64,000 nucleotides of DNA, from the NCBI RefSeq assembly GCF_920984675.1, contig NZ_CAKLBV010000008.1, positions 1-64,000 on the forward strand, read 5' to 3'. Below, one piece after another: positions 7,071 through 39,737 of this stretch. Numbering within the stretch: position 1 is the stretch's first letter; each line of letters begins with the position of its first letter. This stretch comes from Methylobacterium sp. Leaf118. Lineage in GTDB: Bacteria; Pseudomonadota; Alphaproteobacteria; Rhizobiales; Beijerinckiaceae. Below the pieces are notes generated by a model that saw nothing but the letters and a program-made list of their open reading frames with translations, did no database searches and was not told where the DNA came from. A program made the translations under genes and the position numbers.

Positions 7071-7946
7071 TTGTCCCGCCTCTCCACCCGCGCTCCGGCC
7101 AAGATCAACCTGACCCTGCACGTCCTCGGGCGGCGTCCGGACGACGGCTACCATGTGCTGGAAAGCCTCGTCGCCTTCGCGGGCGTCGCCGACACGCTCG
7201 CACTCGATCCGGGCGGCGACCTGTCGCTGGCGGTGTCGGGCCCGACCGCGGGGCCGGCGGGGCCCTTGGACGACAATCTGGTGCTGCGCGCCGCCCGGCA
7301 CCTCGCCGCCTCCGTTCCGGGGTTGAAGACGGGGGCATTCCACCTCGACAAGTGCCTGCCGGTGGCCGCCGGGATCGGCGGCGGCTCCTCGGATGCCGCG
7401 GCCGGCCTGCGCCTGCTCGCCGAGGCCAACGCCCTGCCCCTTGACCATCCGGCCGTCGTCGCCGCGGCCCGCGCGACGGGGGCGGACGTGCCGGTCTGCC
7501 TCGATCCGCGGGCGCGAATGATGCGGGGCGCCGGGGAGAGCCTCGGCCCGCCGCTCGGGCTCGCCCCGCTGCCGGCCCTGCTGGTCAATCCGGCCGTGCC
7601 GGTCGCCACCTCGCCGGTCTTCAAGGCTCTCGGCCTCGCCGTCGGGCAGCGGCTGCACGGCGCCGACCACCCCCCGGTCGCGGAGGGCCTGTCGGCGGAT
7701 GAGATCCTCGGGGTGATCGCGCCGGCTCGCAACGATCTGGAGCCGCCCGCGCTGACGGTGGCCCCGATCATCGGCGAGGCGCTGACACTCCTGCGCGCTC
7801 AGGCGGGTTGTCGCCTCGCCCGGATGTCCGGCTCAGGAGCGACCGTGTTCGCCCTCTTCGGAGACGACGGGCAGGCCGAGGCGGCGGCGCGCGTTCTCCG
7901 CGCCGCCCGGCCGGGCTGGTGGGTCGAGCCGACCCGGCTGGCGTGA
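7071..7946 (+). CDS. ispE: 4-diphosphocytidyl-2-C-methyl-D-erythritol kinase
   Basis: GHMP-family kinase of the non-mevalonate isoprenoid pathway; it phosphorylates CDP-ME at the 2-hydroxyl. Motifs: [21 protein letters not shown] at the N-terminus, the ATP loop [17 protein letters not shown], and [12 protein letters not shown] near the C-terminus. Conserved sequence starts at [13 protein letters not shown], so TTG 7071 is chosen (291 residues). The frame continues to a GTG at 7005 lying inside a hairpin, making 313 residues. A 25-codon frame, ATG 7036 to TGA 7113, overlaps the start out of frame after GAGGGG and could be a leader peptide. IspE supplies precursors used by the carotenoid genes of this window. 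Confidence 0.93.
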
Positions 7947-7960
7947 GGTCAGGCCCTAAA

Positions 7961-8060
7961 GCCGTGCCCCATCCCGGTGAACCGTGAGCACGGCGCCCGG
8001 TCTCGGTGTTGTCGCGCTCTGTCGAGCCGAACCGGCCTCCATTTCGGCGGAGAGCGCGTT
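7961..8060. repeat. Two-armed palindromic repeat, copy 1
   Basis: About 100 bp, matching a second copy at 37420-37520. Arm A is nested: GCCGTGC (7961-7967) pairs with GCACGGC (7988-7994), enclosing TCCCGGT-GA-ACCGTGA. Arm B pairs CGCGCTCT (8013-8020) with AGAGCGCG (8051-8058) and GCCGAA (8026-8031) with TTCGGC (8043-8048). It fills the gap between ispE (plus) and a small minus-strand gene whose stop codon TTA is at 8059-8061. A REP-like bidirectional terminator is the simplest reading. Confidence 0.75.
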
Positions 8061-8235
8061 AGTGATCCGTGCCCGGCCGGTTCGGTCGGGGCGCCTCGCC
8101 ATGAACCTGGGTGAAGCTGGAACGCTGCGGATCGCCTTTCGACTGCGCGACCCGGCCCCGCTGCCAGATGGCGAAGCCCGCGACCGCCACGATGGTGAAG
8201 ATCGCGAGCAGCGGTATGAGCACGTCGTTCGACAC
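8059..8235 (-). CDS. Single-helix membrane protein, 58 aa
   Basis: A GTG-started frame with a strong ribosome-binding site, GGAGGAAAC, four bases upstream. The protein is short: SNDVLIPLLAIFTIVAVAGF forms one transmembrane helix near the N-terminus, followed by IWQRGRVAQSKGD and a polar tail ending RPGTDH. Codon use and the Shine-Dalgarno argue that it is real. Family unknown. The TAA stop abuts the structured repeat that separates it from the convergent ispE. Confidence 0.6.
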   Translation of the reverse strand: MSNDVLIPLLAIFTIVAVAGFAIWQRGRVAQSKGDPQRSSFTQVHGEAPRPNRPGTDH

Positions 8236-36973: not shown

Positions 36974-37405
36974 ATGAGCGACACCGCGATGACCCTCGAG
37001 GCGACGATCGCCTTCCTCGATCGCGACTTCCCGCAGATGCATGCGGGCGGGCGCAGCTACCACTTGGAGGCGGTCGGACCGCTCTCGGCCCGGATGCGTC
37101 TCGACGGCCACGAGCGCCACCTGCGCCCGGGCGGCACGGTCTCGGGCCCGGCCATGATGGCCCTGGCGGATTACGCGCTCTACGCCGCGATCCTGGCCAA
37201 TCTCGGTCCCGTGGCGCTCGCCGTGACGACGAACCTCGCGTTCAACTTCCTGCGTCGGCCCGGCCCCGGCACCCTCGTGGCCGAGTGCCGCCTGTTCAAG
37301 CTCGGGCGGCGGCTCGCCGTCGGCGAGGTGGCGATCCGGAGCCTCGGGTCCGAGGACATCGTCTGCCACGCCACCGGCACCTATTCGATCCCGCCGGAGC
37401 GCTGA
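36974..37405 (+). CDS. Hotdog-fold thioesterase (PaaI family)
   Basis: A 143-residue hotdog protein of the PaaI/YdiI type that hydrolyses acyl-CoA thioesters. Signature pieces: LRPGGTVSGPAMMALADYALYAAI (helix with the catalytic Asp), VTTNLAFNFLRRPGPGTLVAECRLFK and a final VCHATGTYSIP. ATG 36974 (MSDTAMTLEATIAFLD) lies 25 bp from the divergent CoA-binding gene, so they share a promoter region; both act on CoA-type ligands, perhaps a meaningful pairing. The structured repeat follows 14 bp after the stop. Confidence 0.88.
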   Translation: MSDTAMTLEATIAFLDRDFPQMHAGGRSYHLEAVGPLSARMRLDGHERHLRPGGTVSGPAMMALADYALYAAILANLGPVALAVTTNLAFNFLRRPGPGTLVAECRLFKLGRRLAVGEVAIRSLGSEDIVCHATGTYSIPPER

Positions 37406-37419
37406 GCTTCCCCCTTCGA

Positions 37420-37520
37420 GCCGTGCCCCATCACGGTGAACCGTGAGCACGGCTCTCAGCCTCTCCTTTTGTCGCGCGCTTCTGAGCCGAACCGGCATCC
37501 CCTTCGGCGGAGCGCGCTTT
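37420..37520. repeat. Two-armed palindromic repeat, copy 2
   Basis: Matches copy 1 at 7961-8060; the first 34 bases differ at one position. Arm A is GCCGTGC...GCACGGC enclosing a perfect TCACGGT-GA-ACCGTGA. Arm B pairs GCGCGCT with AGCGCGC and GCCGAA with TTCGGC. The middle 18 bases differ from copy 1. It again fills the gap between convergent genes and ends at the stop codon TTA (37519-37521) of the minus-strand gene. Confidence 0.75.
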
Positions 37521-38442
37521 AGCCGAGCGAGATCAGGAGGATGCCCACGCCCATCAGCCCGGCGCCGGCGAGCCGCGCCGGACCGGCCCGGACCTGGCGC
37601 ATCCCCAGCCAGCCGAAATGGTCGAGGGCGATCGAGGTCAGGAGGTTGGCGGTGATCAGAAGCCCGTTGAAGGCCCCCGCCCCGACCGTGTCGACGAACA
37701 GGAGCCCGGCAAAGACCGCCACCGCCCCGGTCAGACCGGCGAGCGGCATCCACCAGCGCATCCGGGCGAGGTCGCCCCGCTCCGGCAGCGGGCTTGGCCG
37801 CAGCAGGACGAGCAGGGTGAAGGCGAAGACGACGGGCAGGAACGAGACCAGGGCGGCGAGCCAGGGGTTCACGAGCGCGCCGCGCAGCTGCGCGTTCCAC
37901 ACCACGCCGATCGCCTGGAGGGCGCCCGCGCCGAGGATGAAGGGATAGAGCAGCCGCGGGTTGAGGCCGTGGTCGCGGTCCGCGCTCTCGCCGGGACTCG
38001 CGCGGGCGATCAGGACGATGCCGGCCAGCATCAGCCCGCCGCCCAGCCAGGGCAGCGGCTTGAACCCCGCCGCCTGGAGCCCGAACAGGCCGAACGCGTC
38101 GAGCGCCAGCGAGGTCAGGATGTTGGCCGTGATGACGAGCCCGTTGAACGGGCCGGCCCCGACCTTGTCGACGAAGGCGAGGCCGCCGAACACCGCGACC
38201 GCCCCGGCCACGCCGCCGAGGGGGGCGTACCACGGCATCGCCGCGAGGGATTCGGCCGTCGGCAGCGGCGTCGGCATCACGAGGAACAGCGTCGCGAAGA
38301 CCAGGGTGATCGGCACGAAGGAGACGGTCGCGGCGAGCCACGGATTGACCAGAGCGCCGCGCAGCTGCGCATTCATCGAGTTGCCGAGGGCCTGGAGCAC
38401 GCCCGCGACAAGGATGAAGGGATAGAGCAGGGCGGGGTTCAC
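37519..38442 (-). CDS. YdcZ/DUF606-type transporter, tandem-duplicated
   Basis: A 307-residue membrane protein made of two copies of the five-helix DUF606/YdcZ unit (about 1-145 and 160-307). Paired motifs are NPALLYPFILVAGVLQALG / NPRLLYPFILGAGALQAIG, NAQLRGALVNPWLAA in both, and GAGPFNGLVITANILTSLALD / GAGAFNGLLITANLLTSIALD. The family belongs to the drug/metabolite transporter clan; substrate unknown. Start GTG 38442 was chosen from the homology. It begins 11 bp downstream of the ArsB-type permease on the same strand. Confidence 0.85.
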   Translation of the reverse strand: MNPALLYPFILVAGVLQALGNSMNAQLRGALVNPWLAATVSFVPITLVFATLFLVMPTPLPTAESLAAMPWYAPLGGVAGAVAVFGGLAFVDKVGAGPFNGLVITANILTSLALDAFGLFGLQAAGFKPLPWLGGGLMLAGIVLIARASPGESADRDHGLNPRLLYPFILGAGALQAIGVVWNAQLRGALVNPWLAALVSFLPVVFAFTLLVLLRPSPLPERGDLARMRWWMPLAGLTGAVAVFAGLLFVDTVGAGAFNGLLITANLLTSIALDHFGWLGMRQVRAGPARLAGAGLMGVGILLISLG

Positions 38443-38453
38443 GGACGCGGCCT

Positions 38454-39737
38454 TCAATGCACGAGGAGGAGGCCGGCGAGCGCTAGCCCCAGAGCCGGCG
38501 GCATCACGACGAGGCCGAGCCGCAGGAAGCGCCAGAAGCCGACATCCTGGCCCTCGCGGCGGATCGCGGTGAGCCAGAGGATCGTGGCCAGGGAGCCCGT
38601 GACCGAGAGGTTCGGCCCGAGATCGACGCCGATCAGCACCGCGCCCGCCACCGTGTCGGGCAGGGTGCCGGCCCCTTGCGCCGCCTGCACCGCCGCCCCC
38701 GCGATCAGCCCGGCCGGCAGGTTGTTCACGAGGTTGCAGGCGAGCGCGATCAGGGTCCCGGCGCCCCAGGCGGTCTCGGTCGGCGCCGCGGCGGCGGCCC
38801 GCGCCAGCGTCCCGGCGATGAGGGCGAGCACGCCGGTCTTCTCCAGGGCCTCGACCAACACGAACAAACCGGCGACGAGGGGCAGGACGCTCCACGACAC
38901 GTCCCGGACGACCTCGACCGCGCCGCCGCGCTTCAGCGCCAGAACGAGGAGGGTCGTGGCGAGGCCCGCGACGAAGGTCGGCAAGCCGAGATCGCGCCCG
39001 AAGCTCGACGCGCCGATCAGGACGAGCGCCGTCGCGACGATGCCGAAGCCCGCGACCGCGCCGGTTCGGGACAGGGCGGCCGGCGCCACGTCGGTCGCCA
39101 CGGTCTCCGCGTCGAGGGTCCGCCGCTGGGTCGCCCACAGCACCGCATAGGTCGCGAGAATCGCCAGCGCGGAGGGCAGGGCGAACATCGCCAGCCAGCG
39201 CGTCAGCGGCGGCATGTGCTCGGCGAAGACGACGAGGTTGGCCGGGTTCGAGATCGGCAGCACGAAGCTCGCCGCATTGGCGATGAAGGCGCAGACGAAG
39301 AGGTAGGGCAGGGGATCCCTCACCCGCGCCGCCCGGGCCGCGGCGTAGACGGCCGGTGTCAGCACCACCGCGCAGGCGTCGTTCGACAGGAACACCGTCA
39401 CCAGCGTGCCCACGGCGTAGATGAGGGTGAACAAGCGGTGGGACGAACCCCGCGCGGCCCGGACGGCGCGGCTCGCCAGCCAGTCGAACAGGCCTTCCTT
39501 CCGGGCGACCTCCGACATCAGCATCATGCCGACGAGGAACAGGTAGACGTCGAGCCCCTTGAGCACGCCCTCCCAGGCGGTGCTCGGCGAGAGGAGGCCG
39601 AGGGCCACGAGGGCGCCGGCGCCCAGCACGGCCCAGACCGCCTCGGGCCAGCCCATCGGCCGGACGATGACGCCCAGCGTCGCGAGCGCCGCGATCGTCC
39701 AGGTGGCGAGGTTGGGGCTCAGGGTCAGGGCACCCAT
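38454..39737 (-). CDS. ArsB/NhaD-type permease
   Basis: A 427-residue membrane protein with about eleven helices. Family motifs are LFLVGMMLMSEVARKEGLFDWLA, TVFLSNDACAVVLTPAVYA, SFVLPISNPANLVVF, ACNLVNNLPAGLIAG and IGVDLGPNLSVTGSLATILWL, all as in ArsB arsenite efflux permeases. No arsC, arsR or arsA is adjacent, so the true substrate could be another oxyanion. It likely shares a transcript with the downstream YdcZ-type gene. Confidence 0.88.
   Translation of the reverse strand: MGALTLSPNLATWTIAALATLGVIVRPMGWPEAVWAVLGAGALVALGLLSPSTAWEGVLKGLDVYLFLVGMMLMSEVARKEGLFDWLASRAVRAARGSSHRLFTLIYAVGTLVTVFLSNDACAVVLTPAVYAAARAARVRDPLPYLFVCAFIANAASFVLPISNPANLVVFAEHMPPLTRWLAMFALPSALAILATYAVLWATQRRTLDAETVATDVAPAALSRTGAVAGFGIVATALVLIGASSFGRDLGLPTFVAGLATTLLVLALKRGGAVEVVRDVSWSVLPLVAGLFVLVEALEKTGVLALIAGTLARAAAAAPTETAWGAGTLIALACNLVNNLPAGLIAGAAVQAAQGAGTLPDTVAGAVLIGVDLGPNLSVTGSLATILWLTAIRREGQDVGFWRFLRLGLVVMPPALGLALAGLLLVH

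Follow-up and report, generated by a model that had tools for sequence, protein, structure and literature searches.

The window, a stretch of 64,000 nucleotides of Methylobacterium DNA, contains two copies of a palindromic repeat of about 100 bp, each lying between convergent genes and ending where the minus-strand gene has its stop codon. The locus raises the question of what this element is and how it came to be placed on stop codons. The sequence-only reading, which had located both copies and their gene arrangement correctly, took them for a REP-like bidirectional terminator or 3'-end protector with a selected fold. We regard the element instead as a non-autonomous IS630-type transposon (MITE) and not as a dedicated terminator, and give this reading a probability of about 0.88; taken as a whole, the earlier interpretation is partly supported.

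Copy 1 (7959–8059, plus strand, about 101 bp; covariance model match C8:7954–8062, E 2.9e-17) begins with hairpin 1 (7961–7994, plus strand), the 5' strand of which corresponds to the terminal inverted repeat of IS630. Hairpin 2 (8013–8058, plus strand) follows, with an outer stem CGCGCTCT/AGAGCGCG and an inner stem GCCGAA/TTCGGC. The copy is enclosed by two TA dinucleotides, the target duplication: the left one (7957–7958), preceded by a C, is assigned from the sequence and from the rule derived from 137 copies, while the right one (8060–8061) forms part of the TTA at 8059–8061 that serves the minus-strand gene as its stop codon. On the left, a plus-strand gene with two GHMP kinase domains according to Pfam (7071–7946), which we take to be ispE, has its 3' end towards copy 1. 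On the right, a small minus-strand gene of 58 amino acids (8059–8235), for which a Pfam search gave no match, has its stop codon in the element junction.

Copy 2 (37418–37519, plus strand, about 102 bp; C8:37413–37522, E 1.9e-19) has the same orientation in the window. Its hairpin 1 (37418–37455, plus strand) was placed by folding, and its hairpin 2 (37474–37517, plus strand) has the outer stem GCGCGCT/AGCGCGC. The sequence of the left dinucleotide (37416–37417) is TC, a degraded TA; the right TA (37520–37521) is intact, and the minus-strand gene again stops here, with TTA at 37519–37521. The flanking genes, assigned by gene call and Pfam, are those of a hotdog thioesterase (4HBT; 36974–37405, plus strand) and of a YdcZ-type inner membrane exporter (DMT_YdcZ; 37519–38457, minus strand). 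All gene calls were made with a home-made hexamer gene finder.

In consensus letters, hairpin 1 of the element reads GAGCCGTGC...GCACGGCTC; a linker joins it to hairpin 2, which has GCGCTCTC...GAGAGCGC on the outside and GCCGAA...TTCGGC on the inside. At 101–102 bp, and coding for no gene, it falls within the limits of a MITE, which lacks a transposase gene and measures less than about 300 bp. The first arm, 34 bases long, differs at a single base between the two copies (33/34 identical), and a scan with it that allowed three mismatches returned only these two sites in the window and none in 100 dinucleotide shuffles. Few parts of the element are as conserved as the core of hairpin 2, CGAACCGGNNTCCACTTCG in genus and order copies (approximately 8028–8046 in the window); it is kept across the order and lies outside the IS630 ends.

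The expectation that the two copies belong to a structured family in the genus was borne out. Arm-specific patterns hit 10 and 18 sites in the genome, against none for the reversed control patterns, and a first covariance model, built from 16 own copies, detects 28 copies in the own genome at E ≤ 0.01, of which 24 have an E-value below 1e-5. Matches are present in 107 of 111 genomes of the genus, the own genome counted. A second model, built from 60 genus copies and applied with strict filters to the order, matches 116 of 297 genomes (six are genus members) and 58 of 122 genera. At most the best 34 matches per genome were scored in the genus search and at most the best 13 in the order search; since the genus and order copies were chosen from these best-scoring matches, several per genome, they are neither random nor independent. 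The copy numbers are minima, as many of the assemblies are drafts and seem to be interrupted at the repeat; copies are seen at contig ends (G008:C157:1-109, G108:C305:15-122 and G108:C88:43-150). No Rfam family matches the window at its gathering score, and copy 1 at a permissive threshold yields three chance-level matches, none of them near its gathering score. Among named records, an own-type copy occurs in Methylobacterium plasmids (5 records), two order-level copies occur in 477 and 463 records, mostly of Rhizobium and Sinorhizobium but also of Agrobacterium and Mesorhizobium, and for a third, four of eight records are of Bradyrhizobium. Near the same genes in relatives (L206 in G014, L236 in G040 and L256 in G038), a different repeat with two arms, GAGCATCGTCC... 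with ...TTTCCGAAAGCC..., was spotted by eye; it has TAGAGC/CTAG-type ends and looks like another MITE family.

When folded, copy 2 is far more stable than its shuffles (z −5.1 on the plus and −3.2 on the minus strand), while for copy 1 the difference is modest (z −1.9 and −2.0). Stable hairpins would suit a bidirectional terminator or 3'-end protector of messenger RNA selected at gene ends, an explanation that we consider unlikely. An intrinsic terminator, defined as a G+C-rich hairpin with an immediate U-tract, was found at neither of the window copies, nor were sigma-70 sites found at either. The compensatory change that had been noticed in the second arm amounts to one base pair, T-A in copy 1 and G-C in copy 2 (alignment columns 68/104); the remaining difference in hairpin 2 is a shifted GC repeat.

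Covariation differs between the own genome and the genus. For 16 own copies RNAalifold gave a poor consensus (covariation term +0.23), and covariation was scored on a hand-written structure in its place; the score was reached by 88 of 500 shuffles and the number of double-changed pairs by 209 of 500. The genus alignment, with 60 copies (59 distinct; 27 of 87 candidates were omitted), has double changes in 13 of 25 pairs and 56 compensated cells, compared to 10.8 ± 2.8 in shuffles and reached in 0 of 500, with the qualification that this shuffle control leaves relatedness in. The palindromes themselves differ in sequence between the copies of different species. The covariation across the genus is a point in favour of a terminator or protector; the own copies, which do no better than shuffles, are a point against one. 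From this combination of strong covariation between species and none above shuffles within the genome, we read the arms as being renewed in the transposing lineage, after which every insertion decays neutrally. The arms would then be kept by selection on transposition; single copies may nevertheless benefit the host.

The genomic context is likewise mixed. None of the 28 own copies lies within a predicted gene; 16 are between tandem, 11 between convergent and 1 between divergent genes. The sequence-only reading had named few copies, copies mostly inside genes and copies mostly between tandem genes as findings against it: the own copies are neither few nor gene-internal, and most of them are tandem. 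Of 137 copies (28 own and 109 from the genus), 70 are tandem, 36 convergent and 14 divergent, 11 are at a contig edge and 6 are called in genes, so that the ratio 36/70/14 refers to the 120 classifiable copies and omits the 17 contig-edge and gene-internal ones, as judged by the gene calls. As a null, noncoding YTAR sites were taken from the window and from 66 of 80 ispE loci (L057–L122), which is not a random sample; 109 of these 169 sites are tandem, 47 divergent and 13 convergent. Compared with this null, convergent regions are enriched (11/28 own copies and 36/120 of all, against 13/169) and divergent regions depleted, yet convergent placement is not the rule. The convergent enrichment, and the location of 27 of the 28 own copies downstream of at least one gene, are in keeping with a terminator or protector. 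Removal of harmful insertions also yields an excess at 3' ends, as argued for the pneumococcal RUP element (PMC3049150), and loss of harmful insertions is the probable source of the 3'-end bias seen here.

TA is kept at both ends in 62 of the 137 copies. When the target is read from the bases that adjoin the two TA dinucleotides on their outer sides, it conforms to YTAR in 60 of these 62 (24 CTAG, 20 CTAA, 13 TTAG and 3 TTAA); at the level of the order, 34 of 38 copies have a YTAR target. A gene stop codon is located at the element edge in 13/28, 12/29 and 33/80 copies of the three sets (13 rather than 12 in the second set with a looser gene-call cut-off). The 60 junction stops comprise 56 TAG, 2 TAA and 2 TGA, the two TGA being against the prediction of the target rule; the minus-strand stops at the two window copies are TAA. 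Since both strands of the element start with G, TA followed by this G restores a TAG stop, and with a YTAR target an in-frame TAG at the edge was a stop codon before the insertion. CTAG is rare, and stop codons make up 19 of the 51 noncoding CTAG sites. The coincidence with stop codons is therefore largely explained by the YTAR target.

An excess is left once the targets are taken into account, 28 stop junctions of 66 against 15.8 expected (binomial p 7e-4, with related copies that are not independent), equivalent to an enrichment that shrinks to 1.8-fold with the noncoding YTAR sites as null. This excess may stem from selection or from target choice; it is a point in favour of a terminator or protector. 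The junctions are on the hairpin-1 side in 26 cases and on the hairpin-2 side in 34, which shows no clear orientation preference and is not what a directional terminator would give. This split counts against a terminator, as does the U-tract search at the two window copies. At copies 1 and 2, relatives read TCA (stop codon TGA) where the own genome has TTA, so a change from TGA to TAA before the insertion has to be assumed at both.

Orthologous regions in relatives reveal empty sites, and the same gene pairs standing there with no element are a further argument against a terminator or protector. At the copy 2 locus, G065 (L239) has the same convergent gene pair and no model match, and no element was seen by eye in 150 bases at the junction of each of the other 16 relatives; the model scan at this locus covered L238, L241 and L239, and the remaining 14 relatives were inspected by eye. 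In L238 and L241, degraded copies lie at a somewhat greater distance from the gene (E 0.0015 and 3.7e-6). The 58-residue neighbour of copy 1 is retained in three of 80 named loci (L058, L059 and L062), and two of these, from M. suomiense and M. rhodinum (L058 and L059), keep it without the element. M. salsuginis (L062/L259) was dropped as an empty site, as a degraded copy on the opposite strand is present there (L062:3879-3989, E 1.5e-4), extending from the ispE stop codon; this would be a second insertion in the same gap in another species. The recurrence of degraded family copies in these two intergenic regions or close to them (L062, L238 and L241) is what can be said from these loci in favour of a terminator or protector.

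At a third site, L034, the gene ends in CTAG in the relatives G045 and G101 (L168 and L169), while the own genome reads CTA-element-(C)AG. In G086, the orthologue of the L034 gene has a copy (L194:1950-2056, E 6.5e-10) that starts within its stop codon and looks like an independent insertion. The clearest example is L275, a copy that sits inside an IS630 gene and has an exact TA duplication when compared with its uninterrupted relative L383: L383 reads cggccacG-TAG-gtgcgg and L275 cggccacA-TA-element-TAG-ggcgg. The site of this insertion, ATAG/CTAT, is one of the two exceptions to YTAR.

The MITE reading calls for a transposase that recognises the same ends. A relaxed search for TA plus GAGC-like ends succeeded in 18 of 30 genus IS630 loci found by PF13358, with the ends 1,030–1,065 bp apart and element lengths of 1,041–1,058 bp, and in 0 of 76 control stretches; in the other 12 IS630 loci no ends were found by this search, which demanded GAG/AAG-like starts. 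The 14 Methylobacterium IS630 loci have a GAGC start at both ends and are all flanked by YTAR, the search having demanded TA alone. In the own genome, the one IS630 element with clear ends (L381) is 1,041 bp long, is flanked by GCTA/TAGT and has both frames open (131 and 206 codons), which overlap, as expected for IS630 elements with frameshifting. Its start GAGCCGTGCCCGGTCACGTAGCAACG agrees with the hairpin-1 end of the element GAGCCGTGCCCGATCACGTTGAAACG at 23 of 26 bases; of 996 GAGC 26-mers in the window compared with the hairpin-1 consensus, the best also reaches 23, which is copy 2's own value, and the next reaches 17. In G083, element copies start GAGCCGTTCCC and its IS630 starts GAGCCGTTCCC (22/26). 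Element types and IS types do not correspond in every genome, however. The own copy nearest to the consensus (L029, G000:C35:23887-24230) lies just past a fragment of an IS630 transposase gene.

The ends were also compared with a profile of 28 IS630 ends, which leaves out L386, L390, L395 and L396 (repeated types) as well as L387, and in which positions 5–26 were scored, without the shared GAGC, against a null of 8,037 26-mers. The alignment and end statistics omit the nine weakest own copies (L048–L056); in the 128 that remain, the hairpin-1 start is readable in 121 and the hairpin-2 start in 114. Hairpin-1 ends exceed the 99% null level in 117 of 121 cases, and their own consensus beats all 8,037 null sequences, with the copy 1 end equalled by three and the copy 2 end by one of them. 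Hairpin-2 ends match weakly: 21 of 114 are above the 99% level (median 98.5th percentile), and of the 8,037 null sequences, 12 do as well as the own consensus, 87 as well as the copy 1 end and 1,068 as well as the copy 2 end. The hairpin-2 end may be an IS630 end too.

The target itself led us to consider an IS5/IS427-type transposase as the mover of the MITE. IS711 is placed in the IS5 family. In Brucella, IS711 is reported to duplicate TA at YTAR (PMC2266754), and Methylobacterium has IS5-family elements with TA duplication. A strict search gave ends in four of 30 IS5-type loci (GGTCGCG, GGGCCTG, GAGCGCC and GAGGCTG), and the relaxed GAGC-type search in one of 30, L358, which starts GAGCGCC and is a point in favour of this origin, compared with the 18 of 30 for IS630. 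The four ends resemble hairpin 1 by a few bases, while the IS630 ends match over 26, and both PF13340 matches in the own genome carry an in-frame stop. An IS5-type mobiliser was rejected on these ends and is quite improbable.

Being palindromic, extragenic and multi-copy, the element also recalls REP/BIME sequences moved by a RAYT (Y1) transposase, the class suggested by the sequence-only reading. REP sequences are palindromes of 20–40 bp, linked to RAYT and with no target duplication, whereas TA is duplicated here and the element has terminal inverted repeats; to our knowledge, neither is a feature of Y1 transposition. We consider this origin extremely improbable, and the TA duplication fits an IS630-type MITE.

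Outside Methylobacterium the mobiliser is less clear, and would rest on one IS630 element. Nine of 20 element-bearing genomes have no PF13358 match. Of 30 order-level IS630 loci, 24 were examined (the other six include five from G335), and GAG-type ends are found only in six copies of one element in G323. Good inverted repeats begin GTGG and GTAC in two loci of G280, and one locus of G302 begins GTGTCC; the others of the 24 have no ends or chance-like ends.

Together, these features suggest the following mechanism. The gene-less element would be recognised at its ends, GAGCCGTGCCC... and GAGCGCTCTCC..., by an IS630 transposase acting in trans, in the own genome presumably one of the L381 type. 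The transposase would insert it at the TA of YTAR, duplicating the TA. Insertion into a TAA or TAG stop codon would create TA plus G, that is, TAG, and the gene would be neither lengthened nor broken; this restoration of the stop would account for the position of both window copies, on a stop codon and at the 3' ends of genes. The hairpin arms would be renewed in the copies that transpose, and would then decay in place. A testable transposition mechanism thus takes the place of a guessed regulatory role, with the 1,041-bp IS630 in the same genome as candidate mobiliser, and it would account for the position of such repeats on stop codons. The case also cautions that palindromes at gene ends should not be taken for terminators. 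The element is ordinary in kind; it offers an answer to what moves one group of bacterial repeats that have been known since the 1990s.

The closest functional analogue, likened by description, is RUP of pneumococcus. RUP is described as a 107-bp element that has a TA target, resembles a resident IS630 at its ends and is found more often than expected between convergent genes; it is proposed to be moved by IS630-Spn1 (PMC3049150, PMC2229807). Its host belongs to another phylum and RUP is A+T-rich, whereas the Methylobacterium element has two hairpin arms and a linker; stop-codon junctions, present in our element, go unmentioned in the cited passages on RUP. Within the genus, M. extorquens is reported to have MiniMdi3, a MITE of about 400 bp related to ISMdi3, and 4 and 8 MITEs are counted in two strains (PMC2680597); MiniMdi3 is likewise a MITE, but much longer than the 101–102 bp of the element described here.

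Set beside CIR, RIME and Bru-RS by description, the element would belong, as one branch, to the two-armed repeats of the CIR/RIME-like kind. Intergenic palindromic repeats of the same order include RIME (Rhizobium-specific intergenic mosaic elements) and Bru-RS of Brucella. Plasmids of Rhizobium and Sinorhizobium carry many order-level relatives of our element, which are also present in those of Agrobacterium and Bradyrhizobium. In the titles and abstract openings of the open-access literature, no tie of RIME or CIR repeats to IS630 was found. CIR (CcrM-associated intergenic repeats, from Caulobacter, Brucella and others) are given in a review as intergenic, about 110 bp long, with two arms, a linker and TA termini, and with GANTC in the loop; their duplication is listed there as unknown and their mobility as unresolved (PMC2229807). 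The element shares this plan of two inverted-repeat arms and a linker in about 110 bp. GANTC is present anywhere in 10 of 128 Methylobacterium copies (about 0.15 expected per copy); because they mostly lack it, these copies were not filed as CIR.

At the level of the order, the hairpin-1 end has a GANTC that starts exactly at base 21 in 29 of 59 copies, and four more have it only elsewhere in the first 30 bases (five of 64 copies, whose start is not readable, are left out). Among IS630 elements, GANTC is at base 21 in 6 of 28 ends of 14 elements, or in 7 of 32 when the near-duplicates L387 and L443 are included. We put forward, tentatively and as a rather doubtful possibility drawn from these motif positions, that the GANTC of CIR, the CcrM methylation site to which these repeats owe their name, is the inner block of an IS630 transposon end. 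If the proposal is true, CIR/RIME-like repeats would be IS630 MITEs, and methylation by CcrM after replication could switch transposase binding and so couple transposition to the cell cycle, as Dam methylation does for IS10. The GANTC switch would then have been lost in the branch to which the Methylobacterium copies belong. The comparison bears in this way on the point left open by the review, how CIR move and why they contain GANTC.
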